This document shows positions 1-16,120 of a DNA stretch of 21,222 nt, one piece after another (the first letter of the stretch is position 1; each line of letters starts with the position of its first letter). This DNA comes from a virus: the IMG/VR virus record IMGVR_UViG_3300037882_001932, positions 1-21,222 of that record, one strand, 5' to 3'. A program made the translations under genes and the position numbers. Below the pieces are notes generated by a model, which was not told the DNA's origin, did not search any database, and worked only from the letters and a program-made list of their open reading frames with translations.

Positions 1-6
1 ACTCAT
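1..6 (-). CDS. Start of a further leftward gene, cut by window edge
   Basis: Only the first two codons (ATG AGT) lie inside the window. The start is inferred because the minus strand reads TAA, then CTAAAAGGGCAGTAAA, then ATG: an AAAGGG SD seven bases before the ATG, directly after the stop codon of the gene at 23-280. This matches the spacing seen throughout the array, so the array continues to the left. Nothing can be said about the product. Confidence 0.5.
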
Positions 7-22
7 TTTACTGCCCTTTTAG

Positions 23-280
23 TTAATCTTTACGATCTGTCTCTGTTGTGTAACCAAAGTCGTACGCTCCACGTTCTTCAGGAGTCATTTCATTAAACTC
101 TACACGTTCAGAAGACCCGGTATCACCGGCATAGTAATGGGGAGAGTAAGGTCTACCGTAGTACGCGTCAGCACTACCCCTGTCAAAAGCCCCACCGTGG
201 CGCGTGTACTTCTGGGGTAAAGTAACCGAGTCCACCTCTAGGTCAAACACTACACCGTTAATCTTTGTTTGAATTATCAT
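23..280 (-). CDS. Small hypothetical phage protein (85 aa)
   Basis: I do not recognise this protein. It is short, polar and Tyr/Gly-rich in the middle, with a short beta-like N-terminus (MIIQTKINGVVFDLEV), a Ser/Gly segment and a charged C-terminus. No membrane segment or signal peptide is visible. Its ATG overlaps the TGA of the upstream gene in an ATGA junction, so the two are probably translationally coupled. A GAGG SD lies ten bases upstream, inside the end of the neighbouring gene, where copy R1 of the dispersed repeat family also sits. Family and function are unknown. Confidence 0.75.
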   Translation of the reverse strand: MIIQTKINGVVFDLEVDSVTLPQKYTRHGGAFDRGSADAYYGRPYSPHYYAGDTGSSERVEFNEMTPEERGAYDFGYTTETDRKD

Positions 281-558
281 GCGGTACGTTCCTCACTTTG
301 TTCCGGTTCGGTGCTCGGCGTTCCGCCTTCTCCCGTGAATACGCCCATAGTCGCTGCGCTCCGTTCGTTTGTATTGGGGTACCCGTTTACCCCTCCACAA
401 AAGTAACCGAAAGCTACGGGAGCTTGGTCTCTAAGTTCTGGTAAACCTTCGGGGTTCCACCACTTCTCCGCTTGTTCTTGTAGTTCTTGGGTCCACTGAC
501 GTCCACAATCACCTTTACAATCTTTAGACATACAAAATGTCCGGTCCATGAAACACAT
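277..558 (-). CDS. Small cysteine-rich phage protein (93 aa)
   Basis: The frame is open from a GTG at 570, but that codon abuts the SD. The ATG at 556-558 lies eleven bases after AGGAG and is preferred. The N-terminus has closely spaced Cys residues (MDRTFCMSKDCKGDCGRQWT) followed by a WW and an aromatic FGYFCGG segment. This suggests a small metal-binding or disulphide-stabilised fold and resembles small Cys-rich proteins common in tailed phages (recollection, not a search). The last 27 residues (SAATMGVF to SEERTA) are low in complexity and overlap dispersed repeat R1, so the tail may be repeat-derived. The stop overlaps the next gene's start by ATGA. Confidence 0.75.
   Translation of the reverse strand: MCFMDRTFCMSKDCKGDCGRQWTQELQEQAEKWWNPEGLPELRDQAPVAFGYFCGGVNGYPNTNERSAATMGVFTGEGGTPSTEPEQSEERTA
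281..320 (+). repeat. Dispersed palindromic repeat, copy R1
   Basis: The + strand reads GGTACGTTCC, then TCACTTTGTTCCGG, then TTCGGTGCTCGGCG. It shares the GGTACGT start and the ACTTTGT centre with copies R4a and R10. It lies within the C-terminal codons of the gene at 277-558 and just upstream of the start of the gene at 23-280. It is one of the more diverged copies. Confidence 0.5.
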
Positions 559-583
559 CAAAACGTACACTCCTTTTACTCAC

Positions 584-1024
584 TTAATCTTTATTAGAAA
601 AACTTAGAGTTAACGCTTGTGTATCGGCACCTGATAACGCTAAGTGTGACACAATAGCTTGGCGAATCTCTTCAGTAGCTTGACGTTGTTTAAGGTCGTT
701 CAATTTACCGATGATTTCTTTCTCTTTAACTAAGTTAGCGTTGTACTTCTCAAAATCTATTTTATCAACTACCCAATTTAAAGTGCGGTTAGAGCTTATA
801 TCGAAACCTACATCTACCTTGGATACCGTAGCTAATTTATATTCGAGGGTGCTTCCTAAGTGTGTAGGAACGATTACCGTATCACCTACATTAATATCTA
901 GGTTAACGTATTTGTAGTTATACTCTTGTGACTGTCCTCCTGTGTATTTGTTAAAAGTTACAGATAGAACTTTCACTTCGGGGCAAAGGATTAACACGGC
1001 GTGTGAGTGGTTATTTAGTAACAT
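584..1024 (-). CDS. Hypothetical protein with beta-rich core and C-terminal helix (146 aa)
   Basis: The ATG at 1024 is chosen over an upstream in-frame ATG at 1051: AAGGA lies nine bases before the former, while the latter is preceded only by a C-rich stretch. Residues 10-90 alternate like beta strands around a VGDTVIVPT segment, then a VVDKIDF strand. Residues 90-146 look helical and charged (YNANLVKEKEIIGKLNDLKQ). The strand-rich VGD-VVVP core followed by a Lys/Glu-rich helix is a pattern I associate with a small phage protein group of unknown function. No membrane segment or catalytic motif is visible. Confidence 0.75.
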   Translation of the reverse strand: MLLNNHSHAVLILCPEVKVLSVTFNKYTGGQSQEYNYKYVNLDINVGDTVIVPTHLGSTLEYKLATVSKVDVGFDISSNRTLNWVVDKIDFEKYNANLVKEKEIIGKLNDLKQRQATEEIRQAIVSHLALSGADTQALTLSFSNKD

Positions 1025-1068
1025 GAGTTTTATTCCTTCGTTATAAAACATTGAGGGGGGGGGAGGGT

Positions 1069-1365
1069 CTAAGGTAGTTTGGGTAGGTTAAGCGCGTCGC
1101 TGATCTTCTCTTTACTTTGGAAAGTAATAGTGTCGTTAGCGTAAGCGGGGGAGGCGAACCAAGAGAACAATCCGTCTAAGAACGAGTGTTTCTCGGCTTC
1201 TCCGTCTAACGTTTCTTTACCTAAAATTTCTTTTGGTGTTACAAAGAACTCTTTCTGTAACTCACTCAGTATCCACTGTTTGTGTAAGGTGTGTGCGCTG
1301 AAGACCAAAGATGTCCATAAAATAATCGGCAATAGTAACTTCGTAGTTGTCTTTTTGATTATCAT
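1069..1365 (-). CDS. Probable secreted or membrane-anchored small protein (98 aa)
   Basis: The ATG at 1363-1365 has GAGG nine bases upstream; a GTG at 1378-1380 in the same frame has no room for an SD and is less likely. The N-terminus is positively charged (MIIKKTTTK) and then hydrophobic (LLLPIILWTSLVFSA), as in a signal peptide or a single membrane anchor. A second short hydrophobic stretch near residue 65 ends in SPAYAND. The 5' third (1262-1365) overlaps the end of the upstream gene in another frame. Overlap plus an exported product invites comparison with Rz/Rz1 lysis pairs, but the partner has no anchor and no lipobox is seen. Function unknown. Confidence 0.65.
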   Translation of the reverse strand: MIIKKTTTKLLLPIILWTSLVFSAHTLHKQWILSELQKEFFVTPKEILGKETLDGEAEKHSFLDGLFSWFASPAYANDTITFQSKEKISDALNLPKLP

Positions 1366-1729
1366 TTGAGGGTTCCTCACTCTCTTGGTGTTGTTGTAAC
1401 TTTAACAGTTTCTTGTTAGCTTCACGTCTTAAAGCCACTTCTCTTCGTTTAAGTATCTCTTCTTTACGTTTCTCTACATTTTTTTGTGATACCAATTCAT
1501 CGACGTAATCTTGTTCCCAAGGGTTGAAGAACGGTACAACTACAACATCTGAACCTAAAGGCGGTAACGTTGTTTTCTCTACTTTAATCCCTTGGTGGTA
1601 ACAGTTCACCGCGTGTCTCACGTAATTTCTAACTTCGCCTACTCGGTGGTAATTTAAATAATCGTTGACGTAGTGGATTAAATAAGATACTGGGTTGTGT
1701 TTGGTGTAAGCGAGTAAATCTGAAGCCAT
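1262..1729 (-). CDS. Hypothetical protein with charged coiled-coil segment (155 aa)
   Basis: The ATG at 1727-1729 is the only usable start before an in-frame TGA. A good AAGGAG lies about 30 bases upstream, separated from the ATG by dispersed repeat copy R2, so translation may be weak or the repeat may have displaced the SD. Residues 1-75 are aromatic and mixed; residues 85-115 are a Lys/Arg/Glu helix (KRKEEILKRREVALRREANK) probably forming a coiled coil. The C-terminal 35 residues are encoded where the next gene already starts in another frame. No membrane segment and no recognised family. Confidence 0.65.
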   Translation of the reverse strand: MASDLLAYTKHNPVSYLIHYVNDYLNYHRVGEVRNYVRHAVNCYHQGIKVEKTTLPPLGSDVVVVPFFNPWEQDYVDELVSQKNVEKRKEEILKRREVALRREANKKLLKLQQHQESEEPSNDNQKDNYEVTIADYFMDIFGLQRTHLTQTVDTE

Positions 1730-1730
1730 G

Positions 1731-1780
1731 TGCGGTGCGTTTTCCGTACGATCCGTTCTCCTTCGTCGATACGTTCGAGG
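1731..1780 (+). repeat. Dispersed palindromic repeat, copy R2
   Basis: The segment GTACGATCC, GTTCTCC, then ATACGTTCGAGG closely matches copy R9 at 6632-6662 (GTACGATCC, GTCCT, then GTACGTTCGAGG). It is preceded by GCGGTGCG. It occupies the space between the AAGGAG and the ATG of the gene at 1262-1729. Confidence 0.55.
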
Positions 1781-1846
1781 TCACATCGCTTGCGCTCGTT
1801 CGTAATCTAAAAATGTAAACGGTTAAAGTTAATAGGTAGGACTAAA

Positions 1847-1874
1847 CTCTTACATAGATTCGGCGGTTTGTCAA
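1847..1874 (-). promoter_or_regulatory. Possible leftward promoter
   Basis: The minus strand has a perfect -35 box TTGACA (1869-1874), a 16-base spacer and a weak -10, TAAGAG (1847-1852). It lies in the only sizeable gap of the leftward array (1730-1874), right after the stop of the gene at 1875-2060, and would serve the genes at 1729 and below. The poor -10 keeps confidence low. The rest of this gap holds repeat copy R2 and no ORF I would defend. Confidence 0.3.
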
Positions 1875-2060
1875 CTAGAAATATCTAGGTAAATTCAAAC
1901 ACATAAGACCTAGACAAATCCACTTAGCTCTTTTAAATACGAAGTAACAAATTTCTCGTTGTGCGTGGATTACCAAAGATGTGATTGTCCACGGCTCTTT
2001 GTTTTTCTCCGACCAGTAAGTGTTCCAATCAATGGGGTCGATGTGAGTAACTCTACGCAT
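1875..2060 (-). CDS. Small hypothetical protein (61 aa)
   Basis: It starts two bases after the stop of the gene at 2063-2353, with a poor SD (AAGTGG, 13 bases from the ATG), so it may depend on re-initiation. The product is rich in Trp, Ile and basic residues (ITSLVIHAQREICYFVFKRA) with no clear membrane span. The last codons and the stop form an imperfect dyad (CTAGA, AATA, TCTAG). Position and orientation support a gene, but its composition is unremarkable and it could be spurious. Confidence 0.45.
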   Translation of the reverse strand: MRRVTHIDPIDWNTYWSEKNKEPWTITSLVIHAQREICYFVFKRAKWICLGLMCLNLPRYF

Positions 2061-2062
2061 TT

Positions 2063-2353
2063 TTATTTAGCCACTTCTTTAGAGATTGTTTCAGGGTTTT
2101 TATATTGGGTAGAAAACCACGACATAGTACTTTCCAAGTCCAAATCTGCGATGGCTTCTTCAAGTGTTTGCGCGGTGCGTGAGTAAATAGTACCGTCGTA
2201 CTCTCTGACTTCGCGGATACGAACGGTAAACTTATTAAACTCTTTGTTACTTGAACCCGCGCCGTACTCAGGTGTTGGGGCAAATACTTTAGTTGTGGTT
2301 TCGTCTGGTTTATGCTTTACGTTGGCGTAAAAGTTTAAAGGTCTATCTGTCAT
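2063..2353 (-). CDS. Small hypothetical protein (96 aa)
   Basis: A strong AAGGAG lies ten bases before the ATG, and the gene overlaps the end of its upstream neighbour by 11 bases. The product is soluble and polar: a Pro/Thr-rich start (MTDRPLNFYANV), a central strand pair (FTVRIREVREYDGTIYSRTA) and an acidic helix (TLEEAIADLDLES). No recognised motif. Function unknown. Confidence 0.75.
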   Translation of the reverse strand: MTDRPLNFYANVKHKPDETTTKVFAPTPEYGAGSSNKEFNKFTVRIREVREYDGTIYSRTAQTLEEAIADLDLESTMSWFSTQYKNPETISKEVAK

Positions 2354-2801
2354 AGTAGTTAATCTCCTTCTTTTCTTGTTCTATTTGTTCTAAAAATATG
2401 GTTAAAAGTTCTTGTTTTCTTTTTTGTAAAGCTAGTTCACTATTTTCCTCGGATACTTCAACACATTGTTGCATAAGTTTCTCTACAATCTCTACGTCAT
2501 CTCCGTATAACACCGTGTGGAAACAAGAGCCTTTATCGTCACCTATTAGTTGGAAGCGACCCTCTTGGTAATGAAGGACTTCCTCTGTCTTAAACTTACG
2601 CCAGTTAAATTTAAATGTGCGGACTACGTTAAAGTCAAACCGTACACTAAAAAATTTATTGGTAAAGTGACAAGCGTAGTGGTGCTCAATTTGTGTGGGG
2701 TAAGTGTTGTAGTAATACGTAGCGTGACCGATAGTTTTATCTTCAACTGCTTTCTCTAAAGATTCTAAAATCTCGTAAAATTGTTTTAGTTCATCGTCCA
2801 T
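2343..2801 (-). CDS. Hypothetical protein (152 aa)
   Basis: The start has AAGGG six bases before the ATG, with GGAGG further upstream. Residues 1-20 and 110-152 are predicted helices rich in Glu, Lys and Gln; the middle (residues 25-105) is aromatic and strand-like (HATYYYNTYPTQIEHHYACH). The mixed beta core between charged helices could be a small regulator or host-interaction protein, but no family is recognised and no catalytic pattern is seen. Its end overlaps the next start by 11 bases, which implies coupled translation. Confidence 0.78.
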   Translation of the reverse strand: MDDELKQFYEILESLEKAVEDKTIGHATYYYNTYPTQIEHHYACHFTNKFFSVRFDFNVVRTFKFNWRKFKTEEVLHYQEGRFQLIGDDKGSCFHTVLYGDDVEIVEKLMQQCVEVSEENSELALQKRKQELLTIFLEQIEQEKKEINYYDR

Positions 2802-2804
2802 ATT

Positions 2805-3035
2805 TTACCCTTGTACCTCCGTTAAATCCCATTCTTGTGCTAACTTATCTTTTGTTTCTTGTGGTAAAACTTTTATGAGACCCTTTAGAAGTCTACGCAT
2901 TTCGTCTAACTCTGCTGCTGTAGATTCCATAAAACCGTCTCGTGTATTACCCTCACTAACTATATTCCAGCTAAAAATATATTCAATCGGGACTTTTGAC
3001 CCATTCCACATTTTATATAGTTTATCTTTTGACAT
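2805..3035 (-). CDS. Small hypothetical protein (76 aa)
   Basis: AAAGGGG lies seven bases before the ATG, and only a few bases separate it from both neighbours. The N-terminal half is mixed (KMWNGSKVPIEYIFSWNIVSEG); the C-terminal half is a probable amphipathic helix (ELDEMRRLLKGLIKVLPQET). No recognised family. Confidence 0.75.
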   Translation of the reverse strand: MSKDKLYKMWNGSKVPIEYIFSWNIVSEGNTRDGFMESTAAELDEMRRLLKGLIKVLPQETKDKLAQEWDLTEVQG

Positions 3036-3038
3036 ACT

Positions 3039-3350
3039 TTACCCCTTTATTGATTGTCTAAGGTTAATTAAATCACTTCTTAATGTTTTTAAACTTATGA
3101 CACTCGACTCTAAAGTTTCTATTAACGTATTGTTTTCACTAGTTAAATCAGGTAACTCTCCTAGTAAATCTTCGTTTAACCAGTGGAGTTCGCCTAACGC
3201 TTCCTCAATGTTTGATAGGGCCGCGCGAACATTTGCCTTGACGTTTAGTTTCTTTAACACTTCCTGCGGTACGTCCAAACTTTGTTTGGTACGCCCGCTG
3301 TCATTCGTTTCGGTACGTGCCGTAGGTACGTCCGTTAGTTTTTCACTCAT
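3039..3350 (-). CDS. Small helical protein with repeat-derived N-terminus (103 aa)
   Basis: GGGAG lies eight bases before the ATG. Residues 1-30 (containing LTDVPTARTETND and GRTKQSLDVPQ) are low-complexity and encoded entirely by two adjacent copies of the dispersed repeat (R4a, R4b). A very similar peptide, LTADVPTERTVTEK, occurs in the gene at 4888-5127. From residue 31 on the protein is helical (VRAALSNIEEALGELHWLNE) with heptad-like Leu spacing, probably a coiled coil. The simplest reading is a small helical protein whose N-terminus was extended by repeat insertion. Function unknown. Confidence 0.72.
   Translation of the reverse strand: MSEKLTDVPTARTETNDSGRTKQSLDVPQEVLKKLNVKANVRAALSNIEEALGELHWLNEDLLGELPDLTSENNTLIETLESSVISLKTLRSDLINLRQSIKG
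3266..3302 (+). repeat. Dispersed palindromic repeat, copy R4a (best copy)
   Basis: The order is GCGGTACGTCC, a self-complementary centre CAAAC-TTT-GTTTG, then GGTACGCCCGCTGTC. The centre with its flanking C and G forms a six-pair hairpin. It lies in frame inside the gene at 3039-3350. Confidence 0.75.
3311..3338 (+). repeat. Dispersed palindromic repeat, copy R4b
   Basis: CGGTACGTGCC, GTA, then GGTACGTCCGTTAG, eight bases from copy R4a. It nearly matches R6 at 5064-5092 and encodes the first residues of the gene at 3039-3350. Confidence 0.65.
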
Positions 3351-3362
3351 TCCTTTTACTCC

Positions 3363-3608
3363 CTAAATAAATTTCTCTGGCGTCTTAGTACAAGTAAAAC
3401 CGTACTCTTTTGTTGTGTCCATTGGGTGGGTCGGTGTTTGAAGGTACGCTTCCCCAAGCGCTTGGCACTCGGCCAAAGACTCTACTTTAATTAACTCAAA
3501 GGACTCGACATAGTATGCGGTGCTCCCTAGCGGTGCGCCCGTGGTCAAACTCTTCGAGTTTTCCGATAAAGGGGACATTACCAACATAATTATAATCAAA
3601 CTATACAT
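3363..3608 (-). CDS. Small, possibly exported protein with internal repeat copy (81 aa)
   Basis: GGAG lies seven bases before the ATG. The N-terminus (MYSLIIIMLVMSPL) is short and hydrophobic, possibly a weak signal or anchor without a charged n-region. Residues 18-33 (SKSLTTGAPLGSTAYYV) fall in dispersed repeat R5. The remainder is soluble, with two Cys (EC near residue 48 and TCTKTP near the C-terminus) that could pair outside the cytoplasm. No recognised family. Confidence 0.65.
   Translation of the reverse strand: MYSLIIIMLVMSPLSENSKSLTTGAPLGSTAYYVESFELIKVESLAECQALGEAYLQTPTHPMDTTKEYGFTCTKTPEKFI
3508..3550 (+). repeat. Dispersed palindromic repeat, copy R5
   Basis: ACATAGTATGCGGTGCTCC, CTAG, then CGGTGCGCCCGTGGTCAAAC. 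It is longest-matched with R7 at 6059-6100, which begins ACATAGTATACGGTACTCC and continues to GTGCGCCCGTG. It lies in frame inside the gene at 3363-3608. Confidence 0.7.
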
Positions 3609-3610
3609 TT

Positions 3611-3841
3611 CTATTCTCCATCAGTCATTAGTAATAGTTCAAGGTGTAATAGTAAAGCCTCTACTTGGTTAGTTAGTATGGTAGCTTGCGTTCTCTCTTC
3701 TGTCATAAATCCTTTACGCCACATAAGAAGGGTTAAATTCTTTAAGTCGTTTAACTCGTCTATATAATGTTTAATAATTGGTGTCTGTTCTTTAACGTAA
3801 TTAGAATAATCTTTATTCCATTGTGTTTGTTTAGCTGTCAT
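3611..3841 (-). CDS. Small helical hypothetical protein (76 aa)
   Basis: The frame opens at a TTG (3856), but the ATG at 3839-3841 has GGAA nine bases upstream and follows the upstream stop directly, so it is preferred. The product is almost all helix (YVKEQTPIIKHYIDELNDL; EALLLHLELLLMTDGE), Leu-rich at the C-terminus but too amphipathic for a clear membrane span. No family recognised. Confidence 0.72.
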   Translation of the reverse strand: MTAKQTQWNKDYSNYVKEQTPIIKHYIDELNDLKNLTLLMWRKGFMTEERTQATILTNQVEALLLHLELLLMTDGE

Positions 3842-3843
3842 AG

Positions 3844-4428
3844 TTACTGATTCCAATTATTAGAATTAAACATAAAGTCGAGGGTTTTCTTAACGTCCAT
3901 TTTTAAAAAGGATTCCACCTCTTCAGTTACCGTTACGAGAATCTCACGGCTGGTGAAAGGTAAATAAGGGGCGTTACGATAAAGAATAGATAGTTCTAGC
4001 ACTACACACGCGCCACACTCTTGGTAAATAGGTTCACGATAAAAGGCGTTAAAGTTTAAAATAGTGCGCTCAATAGGTGAATAAGAATCACACAACCAAT
4101 TATCGTCAAACTCTTGAATAACTTCCTCATCTAAACTTGTTAGGTTGGTGTCTAGGGGAAGACCCTTTGATTCTAAAAAGTCTTTAATTAGTTGCCCATA
4201 AGTCTCGTCTACCCAATCACTTTGGTTCTTTGTAAAGTGGGTGCTAGGGTCAGTTGTTAACGAGTAGTCTTGTGACACAGTAACGTCTAAACCATCCGCT
4301 AGGTCAATAAACGACTCACCTAAAGTTTCTCCCCCTATGTAATACTCACCACATTTAGGGGACTCTGTGTAATCGCTTAAGACTAGTTTGGCGATAAGTT
4401 CAAGTTTCTGTTTAATCTGTTGCGTCAT
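3844..4428 (-). CDS. Hypothetical protein (194 aa)
   Basis: This is the largest leftward gene. GGAG lies nine bases before the ATG. The product is acidic and soluble: an N-terminal helix (QQIKQKLELIAKLVLSDY), a Gly-rich turn (GEYYIGGETLGES), a central acidic part with scattered Trp, and a C-terminal strand-helix part (EILVTVTEEVESFLKMDVKK). Cys residues at CGEYY, WLCDSY and ECGACVV do not form a convincing zinc site. No recognised family. Confidence 0.75.
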   Translation of the reverse strand: MTQQIKQKLELIAKLVLSDYTESPKCGEYYIGGETLGESFIDLADGLDVTVSQDYSLTTDPSTHFTKNQSDWVDETYGQLIKDFLESKGLPLDTNLTSLDEEVIQEFDDNWLCDSYSPIERTILNFNAFYREPIYQECGACVVLELSILYRNAPYLPFTSREILVTVTEEVESFLKMDVKKTLDFMFNSNNWNQ

Positions 4429-4432
4429 AGTA

Positions 4433-4681
4433 TTACTTCTCCATTAGTTTGTTAAAAGCGTAAGGGGTCATACACCCCTTGTCAATTTTGTCGGTTATGT
4501 CTTTACCCTCAATGGTTATAAAACGTCCTTTTGTTTTGTTTACCATAATGTAATTAACATCAGATCCAGTTATTGTTAATATTTTAAGGGCGCTTCGTGC
4601 CTCACTCTGTGTTTTGTAAGGTTCAGTACGTAAAGGGGCAAAAGTCCCATCACTAAACTTAAAGAATAAATAATACCCCAT
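4433..4681 (-). CDS. Small hypothetical protein (82 aa)
   Basis: GAGG lies ten bases before the ATG. The protein is basic and small, with a beta start (YYLFFKFSDGTFAPL), a helix (TQSEARSALKIL) and a strand-turn-strand part (YIMVNKTKGRFITIEGKDIT). It looks like a compact alpha/beta fold. The partner and function are unknown. Confidence 0.75.
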   Translation of the reverse strand: MGYYLFFKFSDGTFAPLRTEPYKTQSEARSALKILTITGSDVNYIMVNKTKGRFITIEGKDITDKIDKGCMTPYAFNKLMEK

Positions 4682-4686
4682 AGCTA

Positions 4687-4875
4687 TTAATCCTCATCAT
4701 CAAGGTGTGCATTTCCACAAATCACCCCGTTTGTATCAAGGAGGGTTAGTTTTTCTGCTAGTTCCTCTTCTTTCAAAGCTGCGATTACTTGTTCTAGGAC
4801 GTTAAGGACTTCTAAACTCGGGTTTTCTGTAAAAGCTGTGTTGTCTAAGTTTATTTTTATAATGTAATTAGTCAT
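4687..4875 (-). CDS. Small acidic hypothetical protein (62 aa)
   Basis: A strong AAAGGAG lies six bases before the ATG. The protein is acidic: a strand (YIIKINLDN), a helix (SLEVLNVLEQVIAALKEEEL) and a short strand-like end (LTLLDTNGVICGNA). No recognised family; many phages carry such acidic mini-proteins among their early genes. Confidence 0.75.
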   Translation of the reverse strand: MTNYIIKINLDNTAFTENPSLEVLNVLEQVIAALKEEELAEKLTLLDTNGVICGNAHLDDED

Positions 4876-4887
4876 TATCCGACTCCT

Positions 4888-5127
4888 TTAGTTTACTTTG
4901 TATATAACTTGTACTGATTCGTTAATGTAGTCGCTCGCCTTTTCTTGAAACTCTTCAAAGGTCATCGACTCATCATCGTAAAAGATTGCGCCCAAGTCTA
5001 GCTCATCGCTTAAGTAAGGGAAATCACCCGCTTTAATTGTTTCTGTTACTAGTTTTTCTGTTACGGTACGTTCCGTAGGTACGTCCGCTGTCAAACTTGT
5101 TAAATTTTCTTGTGTTACATTTTCCAT
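4888..5127 (-). CDS. Small acidic protein with repeat-derived N-terminus (79 aa)
   Basis: CGGAG lies eight bases before the ATG. Residues 8-25 include LTADVPTERTVTEK, encoded by dispersed repeat R6 and close to LTDVPTARTETND in the gene at 3039-3350, though the rest of the two proteins is unrelated. The remainder is acidic (SDELDLGAIFYDDESMTFEE), ending in a strand (ESVQVIYKVN). This supports independent insertion of the same repeat rather than homology. Function unknown. Confidence 0.72.
   Translation of the reverse strand: MENVTQENLTSLTADVPTERTVTEKLVTETIKAGDFPYLSDELDLGAIFYDDESMTFEEFQEKASDYINESVQVIYKVN
5064..5092 (+). repeat. Dispersed palindromic repeat, copy R6
   Basis: CGGTACGTTCC, GTA, then GGTACGTCCGCTGTC, followed by AAACTTGTT. 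It matches R4b and the tail of R4a and lies in frame inside the gene at 4888-5127. Confidence 0.65.
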
Positions 5128-5149
5128 AGTTTTATACTCCGTTAATTAA

Positions 5150-5320
5150 CTATTTTGTTTTAAGAAACTTTGTCCACGCTTTGTTAGCTTTGATAGCGTA
5201 AACTCGGCCTAGGTTAGTGTTGGCGGGTAACTCTTTACTCACTCTTAATAATAAGTCGGCGGTATAGAGTCGCTGTTTTTGGTTGGTACTCAATAAAGGT
5301 TTGGTGTTTATCTTAACCAT
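5150..5320 (-). CDS. Small basic protein (56 aa)
   Basis: This reading frame starts MVKINTKPLLSTNQKQ and ends KANKAWTKFLKTK before a TAG. It overlaps the end of the gene at 5308-5526 by 13 bases, fills what would otherwise be a 180-base hole in a gap-free array, and uses codons like its neighbours. The product is strongly basic with a central helix (RLYTADLLLRVSKELP), compatible with nucleic-acid binding. No clear SD is seen, so translation is probably coupled to the upstream gene. Function unknown. Confidence 0.55.
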   Translation of the reverse strand: MVKINTKPLLSTNQKQRLYTADLLLRVSKELPANTNLGRVYAIKANKAWTKFLKTK

Positions 5321-5526
5321 AGAGGCGAACCCGCTGTATAGAATAACCCATCGTCTTTAGCTTTTAAGCGGCGCTTGTGTGTACCGTCCTTTTTAACACA
5401 CTCACTTAAAGGGAAGTCTCTATAGTGGATCGCCCCATAGCCGAATTTAATCTCGCTAGGTGTGGGTTTACGCCAATAAATAATATACCCACGATCAATA
5501 GTTTCTTGGTTAATTGGTAAAGTCAT
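5308..5526 (-). CDS. Small conserved-type phage protein (72 aa)
   Basis: AAAGGT lies about ten bases before the ATG. The core YWRKPTPSEIKFGYG, then HYRDFPLSECVKKDGT, then a basic KRRLKAKDDGL segment, resembles a small phage protein pattern I recall from several tailed phages (RKPT-SEIKFG-GA-HY-DF). This is memory, not a search. It is soluble, basic and aromatic, possibly a nucleic-acid or host-protein binder. The end overlaps the next gene. Confidence 0.75.
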   Translation of the reverse strand: MTLPINQETIDRGYIIYWRKPTPSEIKFGYGAIHYRDFPLSECVKKDGTHKRRLKAKDDGLFYTAGSPLWLR

Positions 5527-5539
5527 AATCTTTTACCTT

Positions 5540-5770
5540 TTAAACACATGTTATTGTTATGTTTGGTGCATCTTTATACTCACCTGCTGGCACTAATTCA
5601 TAATCACGGATTGACTGCAAACATTTAGTTTTAATCTGCTGGACTCCACCTAGTTCTTGTATTTTAACGTTGTTCCATGAACCCACGACTCGCCAATCCC
5701 CGTTAATCCACTGTTCAAGCTGTAAGCCTAGTTGGTTTAAAGTAAACCTTATTTTATATTTACCGTTCAT
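5540..5770 (-). CDS. Small beta-rich hypothetical protein (76 aa)
   Basis: GCGGGG lies seven bases before the ATG, overlapping the end of the 48-aa gene upstream. The product is strand-rich (KYKIRFTLNQLGLQLEQWI, NGDWRVVGSW) with a final ITITCV strand and no membrane segment. No recognised family. Confidence 0.75.
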   Translation of the reverse strand: MNGKYKIRFTLNQLGLQLEQWINGDWRVVGSWNNVKIQELGGVQQIKTKCLQSIRDYELVPAGEYKDAPNITITCV

Positions 5771-5775
5771 TTTAT

Positions 5776-5922
5776 TTACCCCGCTATCAATCTGAGAGTT
5801 TGGTTTACGCTCTCCGATTCGTTGTCGTTAACGTTAAACATATAATCAAACGAATCTACAAAGTCATTATAATTAATGTCAGAGAGTTGGGGGGCTTTGT
5901 GTTTGTGTGGTTGTTTGACCAT
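5776..5922 (-). CDS. First gene of the leftward array (48 aa)
   Basis: The reading frame is short but well supported: AAGGA lies ten bases before the ATG, a near-consensus promoter (5985-6013) ends about 55 bases upstream, and its stop overlaps the SD of the next gene. The product starts basic and His-rich (MVKQPHKHKAPQL), then turns acidic (DINYNDFVDSFDYMFNVNDN). It is probably partly disordered. As the first translated gene after the main leftward promoter it may be made early and in quantity. Function unknown. Confidence 0.65.
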   Translation of the reverse strand: MVKQPHKHKAPQLSDINYNDFVDSFDYMFNVNDNESESVNQTLRLIAG

Positions 5923-5984
5923 GTTGTGTTTATTCCTTATCCGAATTTTGTTTAGTGAAAGACTTTATCCGTCTTATTCTTAAA

Positions 5985-6013
5985 ATTATAGGTGATTCGC
6001 CTTGGATTCTCAA
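5985..6013 (-). promoter_or_regulatory. Strong sigma70-type promoter for the leftward array
   Basis: On the minus strand, TTGAGA (6008-6013), a 17-base spacer and a perfect TATAAT (5985-5990). Transcription should begin near 5978 and run into the 48-aa gene at 5922 and the whole leftward array. The match to host sigma70 suggests early expression by host polymerase. Confidence 0.8.
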
Positions 6014-6058
6014 TAGAAAAGAATCAAACTAATTCAGTTACTTACCTTTTTAGTAAAG

Positions 6059-6100
6059 ACATAGTATACGGTACTCCAACAAGTTGTGCGCCCGTGTTCA
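6059..6100 (+). repeat. Dispersed palindromic repeat, copy R7
   Basis: ACATAGTATACGGTACTCC, then CAAC-AA-GTTG, then TGCGCCCGTGTTCA. It matches copy R5 over its whole length, except for the hairpin centre. It lies about 45 bases upstream of the leftward promoter. Confidence 0.7.
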
Positions 6101-6199
6101 GATGATAATCATCTTCCGATTCGGATTCGGTACAGTGATTCGCTATGTACCCGATAATGATTCGATAAACGAATCGATAAGTGATTCGGTTTTGTGGTT

Positions 6200-6233
6200 C
6201 GGTACGTCCTCCGATGTCGGTACGCCCGATGTC
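6200..6233 (+). repeat. Dispersed palindromic repeat, copy R8
   Basis: CGGTACGTCC, a centre TCCGATGTC that pairs CCGA with TCGG, then GGTACGCCCGATGTC. It keeps both conserved arms of R4a while the hairpin letters differ completely. Confidence 0.7.
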
Positions 6234-6300
6234 CCTTCGGTTCGTTATGTTAAGTGTTGTGTTAGTTTCTTTCTTTGGTGTAGCGTCTCATCATCAACAC

Positions 6301-6338
6301 ATACATATGTATAAGCTTTATTATTAATTGTATATACA
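6301..6338. promoter_or_regulatory. Pair of AT-rich palindromes, possible operator
   Basis: ATACATATGTAT (6301-6312) is a perfect 12-base palindrome, and TGTATATACA (6329-6338) is a perfect 10-base one, flanked by ATTAAT on both sides. Both contain the TAT/ATA-GTA core, as two sites for one dimeric repressor or initiator might. Low sequence complexity lowers the weight. Confidence 0.35.
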
Positions 6339-6375
6339 TTAATCATTATTAACATTGGTTGGTTATTGTGTGTTT

Positions 6376-6391
6376 GGTGGTGTGGTTGTGG
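6376..6391 (+). other. Two-tetrad G-quadruplex motif in a G/T-only tract
   Basis: GG-T-GG-TGT-GG-TTGT-GG lies in a nearly C- and A-free tract (about 6353-6399). The layout resembles the well-known thrombin aptamer quadruplex. It could fold when single-stranded. Confidence 0.35.
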
Positions 6392-6393
6392 TG

Positions 6394-6411
6394 TTGATTA
6401 TGTTTAATCAA
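6394..6411. promoter_or_regulatory. Perfect 7-base dyad, possible operator or hairpin
   Basis: TTGATTA, loop TGTT, TAATCAA: two perfect 7-base arms. No T-tract follows, so a protein site is more likely than a terminator. Confidence 0.4.
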
Positions 6412-6517
6412 GTAGGAATATGCGCCTAATTCTGCATAAAATAGTTAAGAGTGCGATAAATAGGCACTTACAGCGGTATTTTATTAAGCATAATGTGTAT
6501 TATCCAACATATATTTT

Positions 6518-6542
6518 CATATTAATCAGTAGTCATATTAAT
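6518..6542 (+). repeat. Short direct repeat CATATTAAT, two copies
   Basis: Copies at 6518-6526 and 6534-6542, 16 bases apart start to start. The spacing is iteron-like but only two copies are visible. Confidence 0.35.
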
Positions 6543-6549
6543 TTTTTAA

Positions 6550-6582
6550 GGGAGGGGGTGGGGAAATTTTCGATCGGTGGGG
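6550..6582 (+). other. G-run block 1
   Basis: GGG, A, GGGGG, T, GGGG, a 15-base AT-rich loop containing the palindrome CGATCG, then GGGG. Four runs of at least three G give an imperfect quadruplex motif. Confidence 0.4.
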
Positions 6583-6631
6583 ATGTATTTTAGACACGTC
6601 AAATAATTGGAGTAATTTTTTAGGTTTTTAG

Positions 6632-6662
6632 GGTACGATCCGTCCTAAAGGTACGTTCGAGG
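6632..6662 (+). repeat. Dispersed palindromic repeat, copy R9
   Basis: GGTACGATCCGT, a CCT-AA-AGG mini-hairpin, then GTACGTTCGAGG. It pairs best with copy R2 and runs directly into the G-rich block. Confidence 0.55.
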
Positions 6663-6726
6663 GTGGGGTTGTTGTAGGTGGGATGGGTTTGGGGAAGGGG
6701 TGGTAGGGGTAGGAAGGAAGGGGTGA
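6659..6726 (+). other. 68-base C-free G-rich block with canonical G-quadruplex
   Basis: There is no C in 68 bases, and about 40 of the 66 bases from 6661 are G. At 6680-6700 the runs GGG-AT-GGG-TTT-GGGG-AA-GGGG fit the canonical quadruplex rule (four runs of at least three G, loops of 1-7). The block lies 80 bases before the small terminase start on the coding strand. Possible roles are a packaging (pac) or replication signal, or control of terS transcription. Confidence 0.55.
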
Positions 6727-6805
6727 CCGCGGACGGGTTGATTGGTGTTAAGTAATTGTGTAAGGTTATTGGTAAATGAACTTTAAAACCTACTAGGGGT
6801 AACTA

Positions 6806-7705
6806 ATGACAACTGAAGATAAAGACACCATCGAACCGAGCACCGTAACCGTAGACGATTTACTTAAACAGGAACGTAGTGACATCGGACGCAGCGAAGC
6901 GAGCACCGTAACAATTGATGATTTGGTAGCTAAAGCTAAGGGTAAATCTAAACGAGATATGGAAGCGGCTATCAAGGGTGGGATTGGTATGATCCTCAGT
7001 AACCACGAGAAGCTCGCTGTGAAACGACAAGTTAAGAAAGGTTTGCCGAGTGAAGGTAAGCCAGGGGCTAAGTCGGACGAGGAAACTTACGGAAAGGGAT
7101 TTGACCCGAGTAAGAAAGCGTTGACAGAGAAACAGCAGAAGTTTGTGACGTACGTCCTTATGGGACATAACTACACAGACGCGTACGCTCGGATGAGAGG
7201 CATCGACCCTGTTAAGGAACGTTCTAAGATGGGTAAGTACTTTGGACAGTCAGCGAGTGAGATGGCAGCTATCCCACAAGTTAAAGCGGCGTTGGAACGC
7301 GCGCGTCAACGGAAGAAAGAGATAGTGTTACAGGAGTTGGATGAAGGAACGGTAATCCAAGCGGGGTTACAGCGTTCGGACATTGCGACGGAGTTAGTAA
7401 AGATCGCTTACAACCCGGACGGTAAAGATAACGACAGAATTAACGCGTTGAAGTTGATTGGTCAGATTACGGGAGCGTTAAAAGAGACCGGGGATATACA
7501 AGACGCACATAAACAAGTATTTCGTGACGGGTTTAAGGACCCTTTATCAGCGCTTAACCATTATCTGGGGGTGTTATCTGATAAGTTCTTACGTTCTGAT
7601 TCGGTAGATGTGTTTGTAGACGGGGAATTAATCGAAGGTGGTGTAGCGGAACCGGAAGATGTAGAACATCTAACAACAAACGCACAAACTAGTTTGGCGG
7701 ATTGA
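6806..7705 (+). CDS. terS: Terminase small subunit (299 aa)
   Basis: This is probably the DNA-recognition subunit that brings concatemeric phage DNA to the large subunit for packaging. After a disordered N-terminus, residues 105-170 read LTEKQQKFVTYVLMGHNYTDAY, then AAIPQVKAALERARQR, the pattern of small-terminase helix-turn-helix domains (EKQ-KFV, Y-DAY, P-V-AL). A predicted helical oligomerisation part follows (residues 180-240). At 299 aa it is longer than P22 gp3 (162 aa), with extra disordered ends. The N-terminus repeats STVT(V/I)DDL at residues 12-19 and 33-40. AGGGG lies six bases before the ATG. It is followed at once by the 60-aa gene at 7707. The large subunit is about 2 kb further on. 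Confidence 0.8.
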   Translation: MTTEDKDTIEPSTVTVDDLLKQERSDIGRSEASTVTIDDLVAKAKGKSKRDMEAAIKGGIGMILSNHEKLAVKRQVKKGLPSEGKPGAKSDEETYGKGFDPSKKALTEKQQKFVTYVLMGHNYTDAYARMRGIDPVKERSKMGKYFGQSASEMAAIPQVKAALERARQRKKEIVLQELDEGTVIQAGLQRSDIATELVKIAYNPDGKDNDRINALKLIGQITGALKETGDIQDAHKQVFRDGFKDPLSALNHYLGVLSDKFLRSDSVDVFVDGELIEGGVAEPEDVEHLTTNAQTSLAD

Positions 7706-7706
7706 A

Positions 7707-7889
7707 ATGCGGAAGAAATCGAAAGTGAAGCCTCAGAATCTGATAGCTAAGGATTTATTGAGTAGTAAGTTATATAAGATGAAGGTAATCCCGGACAAAC
7801 GGGAGGAAGCGATGAAAGCTTACCACGAGTTAGTAAAGCTAGAGAGTGAAAAACCAATAGATTGGGAAACAGAAGTGGTTTACCACTGA
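7707..7889 (+). CDS. Small basic protein after terS (60 aa)
   Basis: It starts one base after the terS stop (TGAAATG), so it is probably translated by coupling; the nearest SD-like word is GGCGG. The product is basic (MRKKSKVKPQNLIAKDLLSS, then YKMKVIPDKREEAMKAYHEL). The PQNLIAKDL and KVIPDK words resemble small basic proteins found near terminase genes of many podoviruses, which are uncharacterised as far as I know. A terminator-like hairpin follows at 7916-7938. Confidence 0.7.
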   Translation: MRKKSKVKPQNLIAKDLLSSKLYKMKVIPDKREEAMKAYHELVKLESEKPIDWETEVVYH

Positions 7890-7915
7890 CACCGGAAGGT
7901 GGTACACCTAACAGG

Positions 7916-7938
7916 AAACTCCTTAAATTAGGAGTTTT
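7916..7938. terminator. Terminator-like hairpin between convergent units
   Basis: AAACTCCT, loop TAAATT, AGGAGTTTT: a perfect 8-base stem whose flanking A and T runs serve both strands. It lies between the rightward gene ending at 7889 and the leftward unit ending at 8089. The T-tract is short, so efficiency is uncertain. Confidence 0.6.
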
Positions 7939-7952
7939 GAGGGGAACGTAGT

Positions 7953-7990
7953 GACTACGGACGCACAAATCTAAAGGGATTTGGCGTACC
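7953..7990 (-). repeat. Dispersed palindromic repeat, copy R11 (minus orientation)
   Basis: The minus strand reads GGTACGCC, hairpin AAATC-CCTTTA-GATTT, then GTGCGTCCGTAGTC. Both arms match the family while the hairpin stem is different. Its orientation is opposite to R1-R9. Confidence 0.6.
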
Positions 7991-8088
7991 GAGGGCGCTC
8001 GGCTGGGAGAAGTGTCCTTCAAAGGAGGGTAGCCTCGCGCTTACACAGTAAAGCGAGTGCCTCGCCTCGCGCTGGAACAAAGTTTTAG

Positions 8089-8289
8089 CTACTTCTTCTT
8101 GTAATCCTCCCACAGATTACTTCCTAATAGGAATAGGCCTACTACAGACACGAGGAATAGTGTTACGAGGTAAGTCCCCACAGCTACTATCAATCCTATG
8201 AAAGATGGGAGTAGTACCAGAAGCCAAGGCCACGAGATGAGCCCAAGGGCTTTAAGGATTACCAGAGTGATTGTTAATAGGTGAACCAT
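8089..8289 (-). CDS. Small integral membrane protein (66 aa)
   Basis: AAAGGT lies about nine bases before the ATG on the minus strand. Nearly the whole chain is hydrophobic, with two probable membrane spans (LTITLVILKALGLISWPWLL and VGTYLVTLFLVSVVGLFLL) and a charged cytoplasmic tail (WEDYKKK). The LISWPWLLVLLPSF segment recalls a small phage membrane protein family with a WPWWWVLLP word (memory only). Holin-like size and layout make lysis one possibility, but small membrane proteins of this kind are often not holins. It is the last gene of a leftward unit that also holds the tRNA. Confidence 0.7.
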   Translation of the reverse strand: MVHLLTITLVILKALGLISWPWLLVLLPSFIGLIVAVGTYLVTLFLVSVVGLFLLGSNLWEDYKKK

Positions 8290-8326
8290 TTATTTAAACC
8301 TTTTAAGTATGAAGGTCGCTAGACCT

Positions 8327-8358
8327 GATAACGGGCGCACCACAAAGTGGGTGTACCG
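8327..8358 (-). repeat. Dispersed palindromic repeat, copy R10, abutting the tRNA
   Basis: The minus strand reads CGGTACACC, CACTTTGTG, then GTGCGCCCGTTATC. It shares the ACTTTGT centre with R1 and R4a. It begins three bases after the tRNA 3' end (8361), so the repeat hairpin would lie directly downstream of the tRNA and could affect 3' processing or termination. Confidence 0.65.
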
Positions 8359-8360
8359 AA

Positions 8361-8434
8361 ATACCCCGGTAAGATTCGAACTTACATGACTTAGGTTGAT
8401 CAGACCGTAACTTTACCAATTAAGTAACGAGGTA
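8361..8434 (-). tRNA. tRNA-Ile (GAT)-like, aberrant anticodon stem
   Basis: The minus strand folds as a 74-base cloverleaf. The acceptor TACCTCG pairs with CGGGGTA (one G-T). The D stem is ACTT/AAGT with loop AATTGGTA carrying the conserved GG, and the T arm is GTAAG-TTCGAAT-CTTAC. The seven-base loop CTGATCA puts GAT at the anticodon (8399-8401), giving Ile. The anticodon stem is odd: either two mismatches, or a perfect six-pair stem if one C is bulged. Base 37 is C rather than a purine and the discriminator is T. CCA is not encoded. A promoter ends a few bases before its 5' end. It is probably transcribed, but whether it is charged is uncertain. Confidence 0.8.
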
Positions 8435-8442
8435 CTGTGGTT

Positions 8443-8471
8443 GGTATACCTGATTCTCTATCTGGTGTCAA
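8443..8471 (-). promoter_or_regulatory. Promoter for the tRNA
   Basis: On the minus strand, TTGACA (8466-8471), a 17-base spacer and TATACC (8443-8448). The predicted start near 8436 is at the tRNA 5' end (8434), so the transcript would begin almost at the mature tRNA end. The unit would continue into the membrane protein at 8289. Confidence 0.65.
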
Positions 8472-8478
8472 TAGTAGA

Positions 8479-8508
8479 AAACCCCCAAGGCGCGAACCGA
8501 GGGGGTTT
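8479..8508 (-). terminator. Terminator after the 35-codon leftward ORF
   Basis: AAACCCCC (8479-8486) pairs perfectly with GGGGGTTT (8501-8508), with an inner GG/CC extension and a CGCGAA loop. On the minus strand the stem ends in GGGGGTTTTC. The stop codon TAA of the ORF at 8507-8614 runs directly into it. Confidence 0.7.
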
Positions 8509-8614
8509 AATACTGCTTGACCAAGCAACGCGGGCAACTTACTCCTATTTGCGCGGGGGGAGCGTTGGAGCTACCAACAATCTCAAAGTGTCTCCCGTAC
8601 TCCATAGCCAGCAT
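8507..8614 (-). CDS. Possible micro-protein (35 aa) or small RNA unit
   Basis: A frame MLAMEYGRHFEIVGSSN, continuing to VSCPRCLVKQY, ends in TAA exactly at the terminator stem. The unit has its own strong promoter (8683-8711) and so looks like a complete monocistronic transcript of about 200 bases. A CPRC word near the C-terminus hints at metal binding. Against coding: there is no good SD (only AGAAG, nine bases before the second ATG at 8605), and the frame upstream of the first ATG is broken by TAG. The alternative is a non-coding small RNA covering 8479-8676. Confidence 0.4.
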   Translation of the reverse strand: MLAMEYGRHFEIVGSSNAPPAQIGVSCPRCLVKQY

Positions 8615-8682
8615 CTTCTAGGTCACTGGTTTAACGTTCACCTTCCTCACCACGTTCAACTAGTATCGGTGCGGTAAGTATT

Positions 8683-8711
8683 TTAATAGCACTAAAAGAA
8701 GAATTTGTCAA
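8683..8711 (-). promoter_or_regulatory. Strong leftward promoter with extended -10
   Basis: On the minus strand, perfect TTGACA (8706-8711), 17-base spacer, TATTAA (8683-8688) with TGC directly before it (extended -10). The start would be near 8676. It is divergent from the rightward promoter at 8733-8761. Confidence 0.75.
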
Positions 8712-8732
8712 CAGAAAAATAGTAGTACATTG

Positions 8733-8761
8733 TTGATTTACTGGTAAGTCTATGATATTAT
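8733..8761 (+). promoter_or_regulatory. Rightward promoter
   Basis: TTGATT (8733-8738), 17-base spacer, TATTAT (8756-8761). It ends 29 bases before the gene at 8791. Only 21 bases separate its -35 from that of the divergent promoter, so one regulator could control both. Confidence 0.65.
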
Positions 8762-8790
8762 TTTATACTTAGTATATATAAGGGATTAAA

Positions 8791-8982
8791 ATGGGTATGT
8801 CTAAAAAGAAATTAGTAGATAAGCAGGAGAAGGAAGCTCGTAAGCGCGAATCCCTCGGTCCTGAGTATTACCAGGAATTAACTATCTTTAGGAAAAAAGT
8901 TAACGGTCTCTACGATATTAATAATAAACTAACTAGATATGATTTCTATGAAGTAATGGGTGGGGATGATCTCCCATTCTAA
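8791..8982 (+). CDS. Small charged protein (63 aa)
   Basis: AAGGG lies six bases before the first ATG; a second ATG two codons later (MGMSKKK) is possible. The product starts with a basic helix (SKKKLVDKQEKEARKRESLG) and ends in an acidic, aromatic part (YDFYEVMGGDDLPF). It is soluble, possibly nucleic-acid binding, with no recognised family. It follows its own promoter and precedes the long structured non-coding stretch, so it may share a transcript with that RNA. Confidence 0.65.
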   Translation: MGMSKKKLVDKQEKEARKRESLGPEYYQELTIFRKKVNGLYDINNKLTRYDFYEVMGGDDLPF

Positions 8983-9303
8983 ACTACTCTCTGACAATGT
9001 ATATGGCCTCGGCTTGACGGGTCCACGGTCTTTGGGAGACCTAAGCCCCGGCTCGGCTCATATTAAGAGTTTTACCATTTACTAATTAAATAAATCGGGA
9101 CACCTTGTAAGGGAACGAGAGAAGCGAGTGGCCTCTCGAACGGATCTCGAAGAGAACGTATCGTAGTATTCGATATGTATTAACTTCTAGTGTAAGAGGT
9201 AGATTGTTAGAGGTGGGTTCGCGGTAGACAGACCTCGGGCTATAGAATCGATTAATATTAGATTCTAAGTATAAACTGTAATAAGTGTTAACAGCTTATA
9301 TAA

Positions 9304-9324
9304 GCTAATATACTTCATCTTGAG
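9304..9324 (+). repeat. Direct repeat, copy 1
   Basis: GCTAATATACTTCATCTT followed by GAG. It is identical over 18 bases to copy 2 at 9537-9558, which has one extra T before GAG. It overlaps the end of the palindrome at 9293-9306. Confidence 0.75.
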
Positions 9325-9395
9325 TTCAACCTTTAGAGGTATTACTTCGGAGTATATATAAAATACTCCTTATAAACTCTAAAGGGGGATATGCA

Positions 9396-9414
9396 AGGGG
9401 GAAAACCCCTATTT
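9396..9414 (+). terminator. Terminator-like hairpin
   Basis: AGGGG, loop GAAAA, CCCCT, then ATTTT. The five-pair GC stem and short T-run are consistent with a rho-independent terminator at the end of the structured stretch. Confidence 0.5.
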
Positions 9415-9536
9415 TAGCCATGTCTTTTTATTAGTGATTCGGATCCCAACCCGCACTGTAAATAAAATAGACTGTAAGCTTACATATGGCTAACGCAAAT
9501 CGAGAACTCAAGACTAAGTGGAGAACCAAACTAATG

Positions 9537-9558
9537 GCTAATATACTTCATCTTTGAG
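9537..9558 (+). repeat. Direct repeat, copy 2
   Basis: GCTAATATACTTCATCTT, then TGAG. The two copies bound a 233-base period containing the nested stem-loops and the terminator-like hairpin, which suggests duplication or an inserted segment. Confidence 0.75.
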
Positions 9559-9682
9559 ACGTACCTTCGTCAGTGATTTAAATGTAGCACAAACTTTCAC
9601 GAGTGTCAAATAGTTTATTCACTAAAGTGAAAAACTCCCGTTCGGAACTCACTCGTTGGTTTATTCACGATCTAAGGTACTA

Positions 9683-9711
9683 TTTACGAACTAAGTAAAA
9701 CAATGTATAAA
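9683..9711 (+). promoter_or_regulatory. Promoter directly before terL
   Basis: TTTACG (9683-9688), a 17-base spacer and TATAAA (9706-9711). The predicted start near 9718 falls on the terL ATG (9719), which would give a leaderless or nearly leaderless mRNA. Confidence 0.5.
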
Positions 9712-9718
9712 TACGGGT

Positions 9719-11383: not shown

Positions 11384-11422
11384 CAAGTAAATTAATTAAA
11401 AGAAAAATAAAGGAACTCCCAA

Positions 11423-13726: not shown

Positions 13727-13731
13727 ACTAG

Positions 13732-13923
13732 ATGTTTTCAGATATTATTAATCGTATCACTTCTCAAAAGAAACAGTTTGAGGAGTCGGTGTTACTAGGT
13801 TCTATTGACAGTTATGAAGTGTACAGGTACCATCGAGGCGTTCTAATGGGATTGGATTTAGCGTTACAAGCTATTGAAGATTACCAAAAGGAAATGACCC
13901 GACTAAATAACGATGATAACTAA
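13732..13923 (+). CDS. Small helical protein after portal (63 aa)
   Basis: AAAGGT lies eight bases before the ATG, five bases after the portal stop. The product is one or two helices (IINRITSQKKQFEESVLLGS, then GVLMGLDLALQAIEDYQKEM) with a charged C-terminus. Small helical proteins of this shape (a G--GL--AL pattern) often follow portal genes in podovirus-like phages; I know of no assigned role. Coupling to the portal suggests a virion-assembly function. Confidence 0.7.
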   Translation: MFSDIINRITSQKKQFEESVLLGSIDSYEVYRYHRGVLMGLDLALQAIEDYQKEMTRLNNDDN

Positions 13924-13938
13924 ATAGGTACTTCACTA

Positions 13939-14340
13939 ATGTCTTTACAACTCTCTAAATTAAATACAGAGTTCACACCAAGTACGACCCCTGACCCAGA
14001 AAACTTACCGAGTATCCGTCCCCGCGACGTTCTTATTCGTCCGGTTCCGGTACGGGAAACTACTAAAGGTGGTTTGATTCTTCCAGATAATCTACGTTCA
14101 GACATGACACTCTTAACCCAAATTGGTAAGGTGTTAGCTGTTGGCTCGGAAGCTTTCACTTCGAATGAGTTCGCGTTAAACGACGTAAACGTAGGTGATT
14201 ACGTTATCTTTGATAAGTTCGCTCACGATAAGTTGGCTTACAAAAACGTCCTTTTGATTCTTTGTGAAGATATGAACGTTAAAATGAAAGTAACTTCTCC
14301 AGAAGATGTGGACCCTTCAGGGTTAACTAGGAGTTTTTAA
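13939..14340 (+). CDS. GroES-like co-chaperonin (133 aa)
   Basis: The Cpn10 pattern is clear: RPRDVLIRPVPVRETTKGGL (residues 27-46) with mobile-loop residues KGGLILP (43-49), then IGKVLAVGS, then NVGDYVIFDKFAHDKL, then LLILCEDMNV. It should form a heptameric lid on the host GroEL and help fold virion proteins, as T4 gp31 does for its coat. About 25 extra residues at the N-terminus and 18 at the C-terminus extend the usual 95-100 aa. Its place between portal and scaffold suggests late expression with its likely client, the coat. An AGGT lies upstream of the ATG. Confidence 0.9.
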   Translation: MSLQLSKLNTEFTPSTTPDPENLPSIRPRDVLIRPVPVRETTKGGLILPDNLRSDMTLLTQIGKVLAVGSEAFTSNEFALNDVNVGDYVIFDKFAHDKLAYKNVLLILCEDMNVKMKVTSPEDVDPSGLTRSF

Positions 14341-14347
14341 GACTATG

Positions 14348-14356
14348 TGTTATACC
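14348..14356 (+). promoter_or_regulatory. Possible extended -10 promoter before the scaffold gene
   Basis: TGT-TATACC lies in the 96-base gap 14341-14436, within the 13-base word ATGTGTTATACCT that also precedes the capsid gene at 16249. No good -35 is seen. The gap otherwise holds a CAGTA/TACTG inverted repeat and no gene. Confidence 0.4.
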
Positions 14357-15495: not shown

Positions 15496-15507
15496 GAGTA
15501 ACCCAAT

Positions 15508-16119: not shown

Positions 16120-16120
16120 T

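Follow-up and report, generated by a model that had tools for sequence, protein, structure and literature searches.

A phage genome fragment carries at least 14 dispersed copies of a small hairpin built around a conserved helix with two symmetric A bulges. The copies share one orientation relative to transcription, and their stems show compensatory change. From these sequence features we tentatively favor the view that this lineage-private stem-loop family acts single-stranded, most likely as RNA hairpins within the transcripts of the phage.

RESULTS

The analyzed virus record and its gene layout

The analyzed stretch (the window) is the 21,222-base virus record IMGVR_UViG_3300037882_001932, which is probably a genome fragment. 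It is a virus of bacteria, and by its terminase, portal, and capsid genes HTVC023P-, DSL-LC04-, and CRP-901-like podoviruses are its distant kin. Identity to named phages is ~37% for the terminase and 50% for the capsid; for the latter, the best IMG/VR match among those listed is 60% identical. When phage records were searched for sequence nearly identical to the window, no match was found. Small leftward genes occupy positions 23-5770 and rightward genes run from 6806 on, forming two divergent transcription units. The sign of the GC skew switches near 6 kb, and the best sigma-70-like leftward promoter is predicted at 6013-5985.

In the divergent intergenic region near the GC-skew switch, the plus strand is strongly G-rich at 6540-6735, with eight runs of at least four G, and 5924-6806 contains no C runs of four or more. 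The G-rich tract is a possible origin, R-loop, or quadruplex region. In an Rfam scan of the window, only a tRNA reached the gathering score (8361-8434, minus strand; 41 bits). ARAGORN did not call a tRNA there. The end of copy R10 is 3 nt away.

Fourteen copies of a hairpin repeat

A sequence-only reading of the window had described a family of at least eleven dispersed hairpin repeats and had named shuffled sequence as a control. The existence of the family was confirmed by such controls and by a covariance model. The half-site GGTRCGYYC has 11 matches in the window versus 0.74 in shuffles, with none of 100 shuffles reaching 11. All 11 matches fall within or overlap the copies, and solitary half-sites are absent. 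Furthermore, a structured scan detected 8 intact hairpins in the window, while 200 shuffles gave a mean of 0.35 and a maximum of 2. In neither scan did shuffled sequence match the window.

The first covariance model was built from the 8 intact copies and run on the window without filters. It recovered these 8 and five more, R12, R13, R2, R9, and R1 (E values from 0.0007 to 0.1; Table 1), all on the sense strand. A second model was built from these 13 copies; it detected R14, unseen in training, at the E value given in Table 1, and its further matches in the window had E values of 0.38 and above. Thus, the copies listed earlier are real, but the total is 14: R12, R13, and R14, all on the plus strand, had been missed, and R14 lies in 8361-21222, where no copy had been seen. 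R2 and R9 had been assigned wrong registers, their cores being of the CGA...TCG subtype. The expanded copy R1 is the weakest among those originally listed; over the whole set, certainty is lowest for R1, R9, and R14. The generic double-A-bulge architecture without sequence occurs 8 times in the window and 1 to 10 times in shuffles, which is not above chance; R13 and R14 therefore depend on sequence plus structure. Rfam families gave no match at any element in 1-9800 at E values up to 1.

TABLE 1 Copies of the hairpin repeat and their upstream hairpins, with covariance model E values
Feature	Position	Strand	Core or stem	Location	Remarks
R1	282..347	-	expanded, TGG...CCG; inner stem TTCAC/GTGAG; long apical part	1 nt before start codon at 280	E 0.1; E 0.0008 as training member
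R2	1749..1777	-	CGA...TCG subtype		E 0.007; homologous to R14, flank included
R4a	3267..3297	-	canonical; 6-bp inner stem CCAAAC/GTTTGG	within gene 3039..3350	
R4b	3311..3334	-	canonical	gene 3039..3350, from codon 6	
R5	3518..3541	-	canonical	within gene 3363..3608	3' flank common to R7
R5 upstream hairpin	3547..3561	-	AAACTC-GAA-GAGTTT		
R6	5064..5087	-	canonical	within gene 4888..5127	
R6 upstream hairpin	5093..5107	-	AAATTT-AAC-AAGTTT		absent from predicted minimum-energy fold
R7	6069..6094	-	canonical	noncoding	
R7 upstream hairpin	6100..6114	-	AGATGA-TTA-TCATCT		upstream sequence resembles that of R13
R8	6200..6228	-	canonical	noncoding	
R9	6636..6659	-	CGA...TCG subtype	noncoding	E 0.09
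R12	6886..6908	+		terminase small subunit gene, from codon 27	new; E 0.0007; model span 6878-6912
R13 upstream hairpin	7657..7671	+	AGATGT-AGA-ACATCT		
R13	7677..7704	+	outer stem CAA...TTG	3' end of terminase small subunit gene; next start codon follows after 2 nt	new; E 0.001; model span 7669-7708
R11	7958..7991	+	canonical	noncoding	stablest of copies folded, z = -6.3
R10 upstream hairpin	8313..8326	+	AGGTC-GCTA-GACCT		
R10	8332..8358	+	canonical; two G-U pairs in conserved helix	adjoins minus-strand tRNA gene	
R14	9137..9163	+	CGA...TCG subtype	noncoding, upstream of terminase large subunit gene	new; E 0.05

A conserved helix with two A bulges and a variable apical stem

On the gene strand, the core reads CGG-RCGY-A-(variable apical stem-loop)-RCGY-A-CCG. 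Seven conserved pairs make up the helix, which has a single unpaired A per side, and the whole element is about 25-65 nt long. The two GGTACG arms noted before do pair, but they are not simply inverted: because RCGY is self-complementary, they pair with a slip of one base, which strands an A on each side. Pairing is kept in the outer-pair subtypes CGA/TCG (R2, R9, and R14), CAA/TTG (R13), and TGG/CCG (R1). The claim that the centers vary yet stay complementary was mostly borne out, since the apical stems (including CCAAAC/GTTTGG, CAAATC/GATTTG, CCAC/GTGG, CAAC/GTTG, and CC/GG) differ but mostly pair. R5 and R7 have a flank in common and different centers, each still complementary.

The proposed compensatory change was confirmed, with both partners altered in 20 cells versus 8.0 in shuffles; none of 500 shuffles reached 20. 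In the 13-copy alignment, pair 15-85 is UA in seven copies and CG in six, and pair 11-90 is GC in ten and AU in three. Paired cells amount to 86% versus 74.5% in shuffles. Because this alignment was fitted to the structure, all of these counts, the 20 doubly changed cells included, are biased toward it. When the partners were slid by 1-3 columns, pairing fell to 25-38%. An 8-copy MAFFT alignment gave the same covariation picture.

For R4a, R4b, R6, R8, R10, and R11, the minimum-energy structure predicted by RNA folding is the bulged stem. Within the conserved seven pairs, the gene strand has 7 G-U versus 1 A-C, and the other strand has the reverse. This modest excess (7 to 1; P about 0.04) hints at the gene strand as the folding strand. 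The fold energies of the two strands showed no separation. In summary, covariation, single-strand folding of the bulged stem, and the uniform strand support the earlier suggestion of selection on a hairpin.

A GAC-NN leader is located 5' of the core in 8 of the 14 copies, and variants of it occur in others. In five copies (R5, R6, R7, R10, and R13), a perfect 5- to 6-bp hairpin lies exactly 5 nt upstream of the core. At a background rate of 2.5% per site, about 0.4 would be expected in 14 copies; this test was performed after the 5-nt gap class had been noticed. With the gap free to vary, the mean upstream-hairpin score of all 14 copies was not above chance (P = 0.44), leaving the exact 5-nt class as the sole one to stand out. 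Since the average is not raised, the upstream hairpin defines a subclass.

Orientation and location of the copies

The leftward half contains nine copies, all on the minus strand, and the rightward half contains five, all on the plus strand; every copy is sense to its transcription unit. This holds for all six copies found or re-registered by model or homology. R10 is antisense to the nearest minus-strand tRNA gene and a small ORF and sense to the main rightward unit. The last copy ends at 9163, ahead of the terminase large subunit gene, and a covariance-model scan of the structural genes (9.7-21 kb) found no copy.

Seven of the copies overlap genes and fall into two codon phases. Some copies, in genes 3039..3350 and 4888..5127, yield similar DVPTxRT-like peptides, as would be expected if the repetition were at the protein level. 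Because the coding copies are read in two frames, the peptide is not the constraint, and a peptide repeat was excluded. Moreover, noncoding DNA also carries copies, as do both transcription units. Together with the shuffle controls, this makes repetition by chance or at the protein level extremely improbable.

In the region around R7 and R8 (5993-6190), TGATTCG words and palindromes are clustered. The terminase small subunit gene contains similar 33-nt units at 6829-6861 and 6892-6924, which are 82% identical and 63 nt apart. The latter overlaps R12, and the former has the right half of the R12 element only.

Copying between sites

Upstream flanks are common to R2/R14, R11/R12, R7/R13, and R1/R2, and the downstream flank is common to R5/R7. 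Six upstream flank pairs and one downstream pair scored above the 99% level of random segment pairs, where about one is expected by chance in the 91 pairs compared per side. R2 and R14 align over about 57 columns including the flank, and R11 and R12 have a 13-nt 5' flank in common. R2/R14 and R7/R13 are opposite-strand pairs. Because copies share long flanks, some of them on opposite strands, we conclude that duplications have happened; dispersal by copying, as supposed at first reading, is thus supported.

Distribution outside the record

As a positive control, the second model found 9 of the 14 copies in their own record in fast genome search mode. It did not find the element in seven complete related phage genomes or in 42 further related virus records. 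In this sense, i.e., absence from the records searched, the family appears to be phage-private. Three exact pattern scans of IMG/VR gave 54, 8, and 25 stretches, which are isolated chance hits; among the 54, single hits that were GC rich and coding repeats of 9 nt predominated. One IMG/VR match to the second model (L350; E = 0.00015) was treated as chance, because it had been picked by the pattern itself and its apical part is unpaired. In a genome pattern scan, Streptomyces dominates among the matches listed. A model search for host copies in 369 genomes of one class (that of G020) and 292 of one phylum (that of G024), in which few candidates were scored, gave no match. Searches for empty alleles through gene 4888..5127 and the terminase small subunit yielded no usable relatives, and even the nearest relatives found, whose capsid proteins are at most 60% identical, do not carry the family.

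A terminase relative (IMGVR_UViG_3300022178_002409, positions 1-6000) has a different family of dispersed palindromic words in its early region. There, AATTGTTC occurs 25 times versus about 1.3 expected, often as GAACAATTGTTC, and CCCGATCC occurs 9 times.

DISCUSSION

Among described cases, the ESAS of cluster K mycobacteriophages behave most like this family. ESAS are phage-private dispersed imperfect inverted repeats with a variable spacer and on the order of ten copies; nearly all have one orientation, and they are found in nonstructural genes only and not in the host (PMC3203893). They adjoin the 13-bp SAS just upstream of start codons (PMC3203893). The family described here is likewise private, dispersed, sense oriented in 14/14 copies, and limited to the nonstructural region. 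However, it does not follow the location rule of ESAS, as only R1, R2, and R13 (3/14) are followed by a start codon within 20 nt. Furthermore, the ESAS sequence is unrelated, and a double A-bulge is not described for ESAS.

A somewhat unlikely but serious rival origin for the family is a REP-like mobile hairpin of single-stranded DNA, with GAC-NN as its 5' tag and with unpaired bases, moved by a Y1-type transposase from elsewhere in the phage or host. The uniform strand would then be explained if insertions had entered the lagging-strand template as forks moved away from an origin near 6.6 kb. The dispersed copies with common flanks, some on opposite strands, and the uniform orientation relative to the GC-skew switch are in line with this origin. 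Bacterial REPs (the GTAG and CGTC superfamilies, including RPE-4 and RPE-6 of Rickettsia) are 20- to 40-nt hairpins with a tag at one end (PMC3733652). In GTAG-1/2 REPs, too, a tag and an unpaired dinucleotide accompany the hairpin, and REPs in general show compensating stem variants and intragenic copies (PMC3733652); the present family has this tagged-hairpin plan, such variants, and such copies in a phage. Unlike in GTAG REPs, the leader is GAC-NN and no GTAG adjoins the stem, although R11 and R12 have GTAG a few nucleotides further upstream. GTAG REPs frequently form head-to-head or tail-to-tail dimers, whereas head-to-head dimers are absent here and the sole close pair, R4a/R4b, is head-to-tail. 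CGTC repeats and RPE-4/RPE-6 have an 8- to 9-bp stem starting from A-T pairs, a CGTC tag, a 4- to 5-nt loop, and a CCA tail (PMC3733652), while the stem here begins with C-G and G-C, has internal A bulges, and is very variable in apical length. A Y1 transposase (PF01797) was not found in the window, itself a fragment, and the centers of the flank-sharing R5 and R7 differ strongly, unlike those of recent insertions.

Two further explanations at the DNA level are each improbable in our view. If the hairpins were displayed on exposed lagging-strand template as primase or primosome assembly sites, the same strand relative to both presumed forks, the copies along both arms, and the switch in GC skew and the G-rich tract at about 6-6.5 kb would fit. 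However, the right arm is without copies at 9.2-21 kb, the origin is a putative one, and known single-strand initiation sites occur once or a few times per replicon. Operators for a DNA repressor, each with two GGTRCGYCC half-sites like the stoperators of cluster A mycobacteriophages, would agree with the well-conserved, near-palindromic half-site and the confinement to the nonstructural region. Such operators are at odds with the lack of solitary half-sites, a half spacing from a few to about 48 nt, the pairing of the centers, and the strand bias.

We prefer an RNA signal because the orientation follows transcription and the copies stop before the structural genes. The two-A-bulge helix may then be recognized by an RNA-binding factor, from the phage or from its host, that acts on early and packaging-region messages. 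Its role might be in processing, stability, or antitermination rather than in start-codon control, which is less favored because the position of the copies relative to starts varies. The copies may have spread by duplication and then been retained through selection on structure. The put RNA of HK022, present twice per genome, is about 70 nt long and consists of two adjacent stem-loops with unpaired bases; it causes antitermination by acting on RNA polymerase via the beta' zinc-binding domain (PMC9378689). Like put, the present family has a two-hairpin plan and is sense oriented in both divergent early transcripts; unlike put, it has 14 copies and the second hairpin in only 5, and the likeness is one of layout. 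Several points count against an RNA signal. R7-R9 may lie upstream of the predicted promoter at 6013-5985 and thus might not be transcribed from it, R10 is antisense to its nearest tRNA gene and small ORF, the two strands do not differ in fold energy, and the G-U excess is modest. Furthermore, if the origin is near 6.6 kb, the transcription sense coincides with the lagging-strand template. DNA readings stay viable, because a lagging-strand element with such an origin would give the same orientation.

It is conceivable, though unlikely, that the repeats represent a new class of structured RNA: one or two hairpins with a symmetric double A-bulge, deployed ~14 times by one phage lineage in its early and packaging-region transcripts, with a dedicated phage RNA-binding protein setting RNA fate there. 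Descriptions of dispersed structured repeats exist for few phages, and the function of the most similar ones, SAS/ESAS, was unknown when they were reported. With 14 copies, compensatory change, a uniform strand, and intragenic tolerance, the family offers a sharp, testable system of one hairpin and one presumed reader. More generally, it would help to tell whether small palindromic repeats originate as RNA signals or as mobile hairpins.
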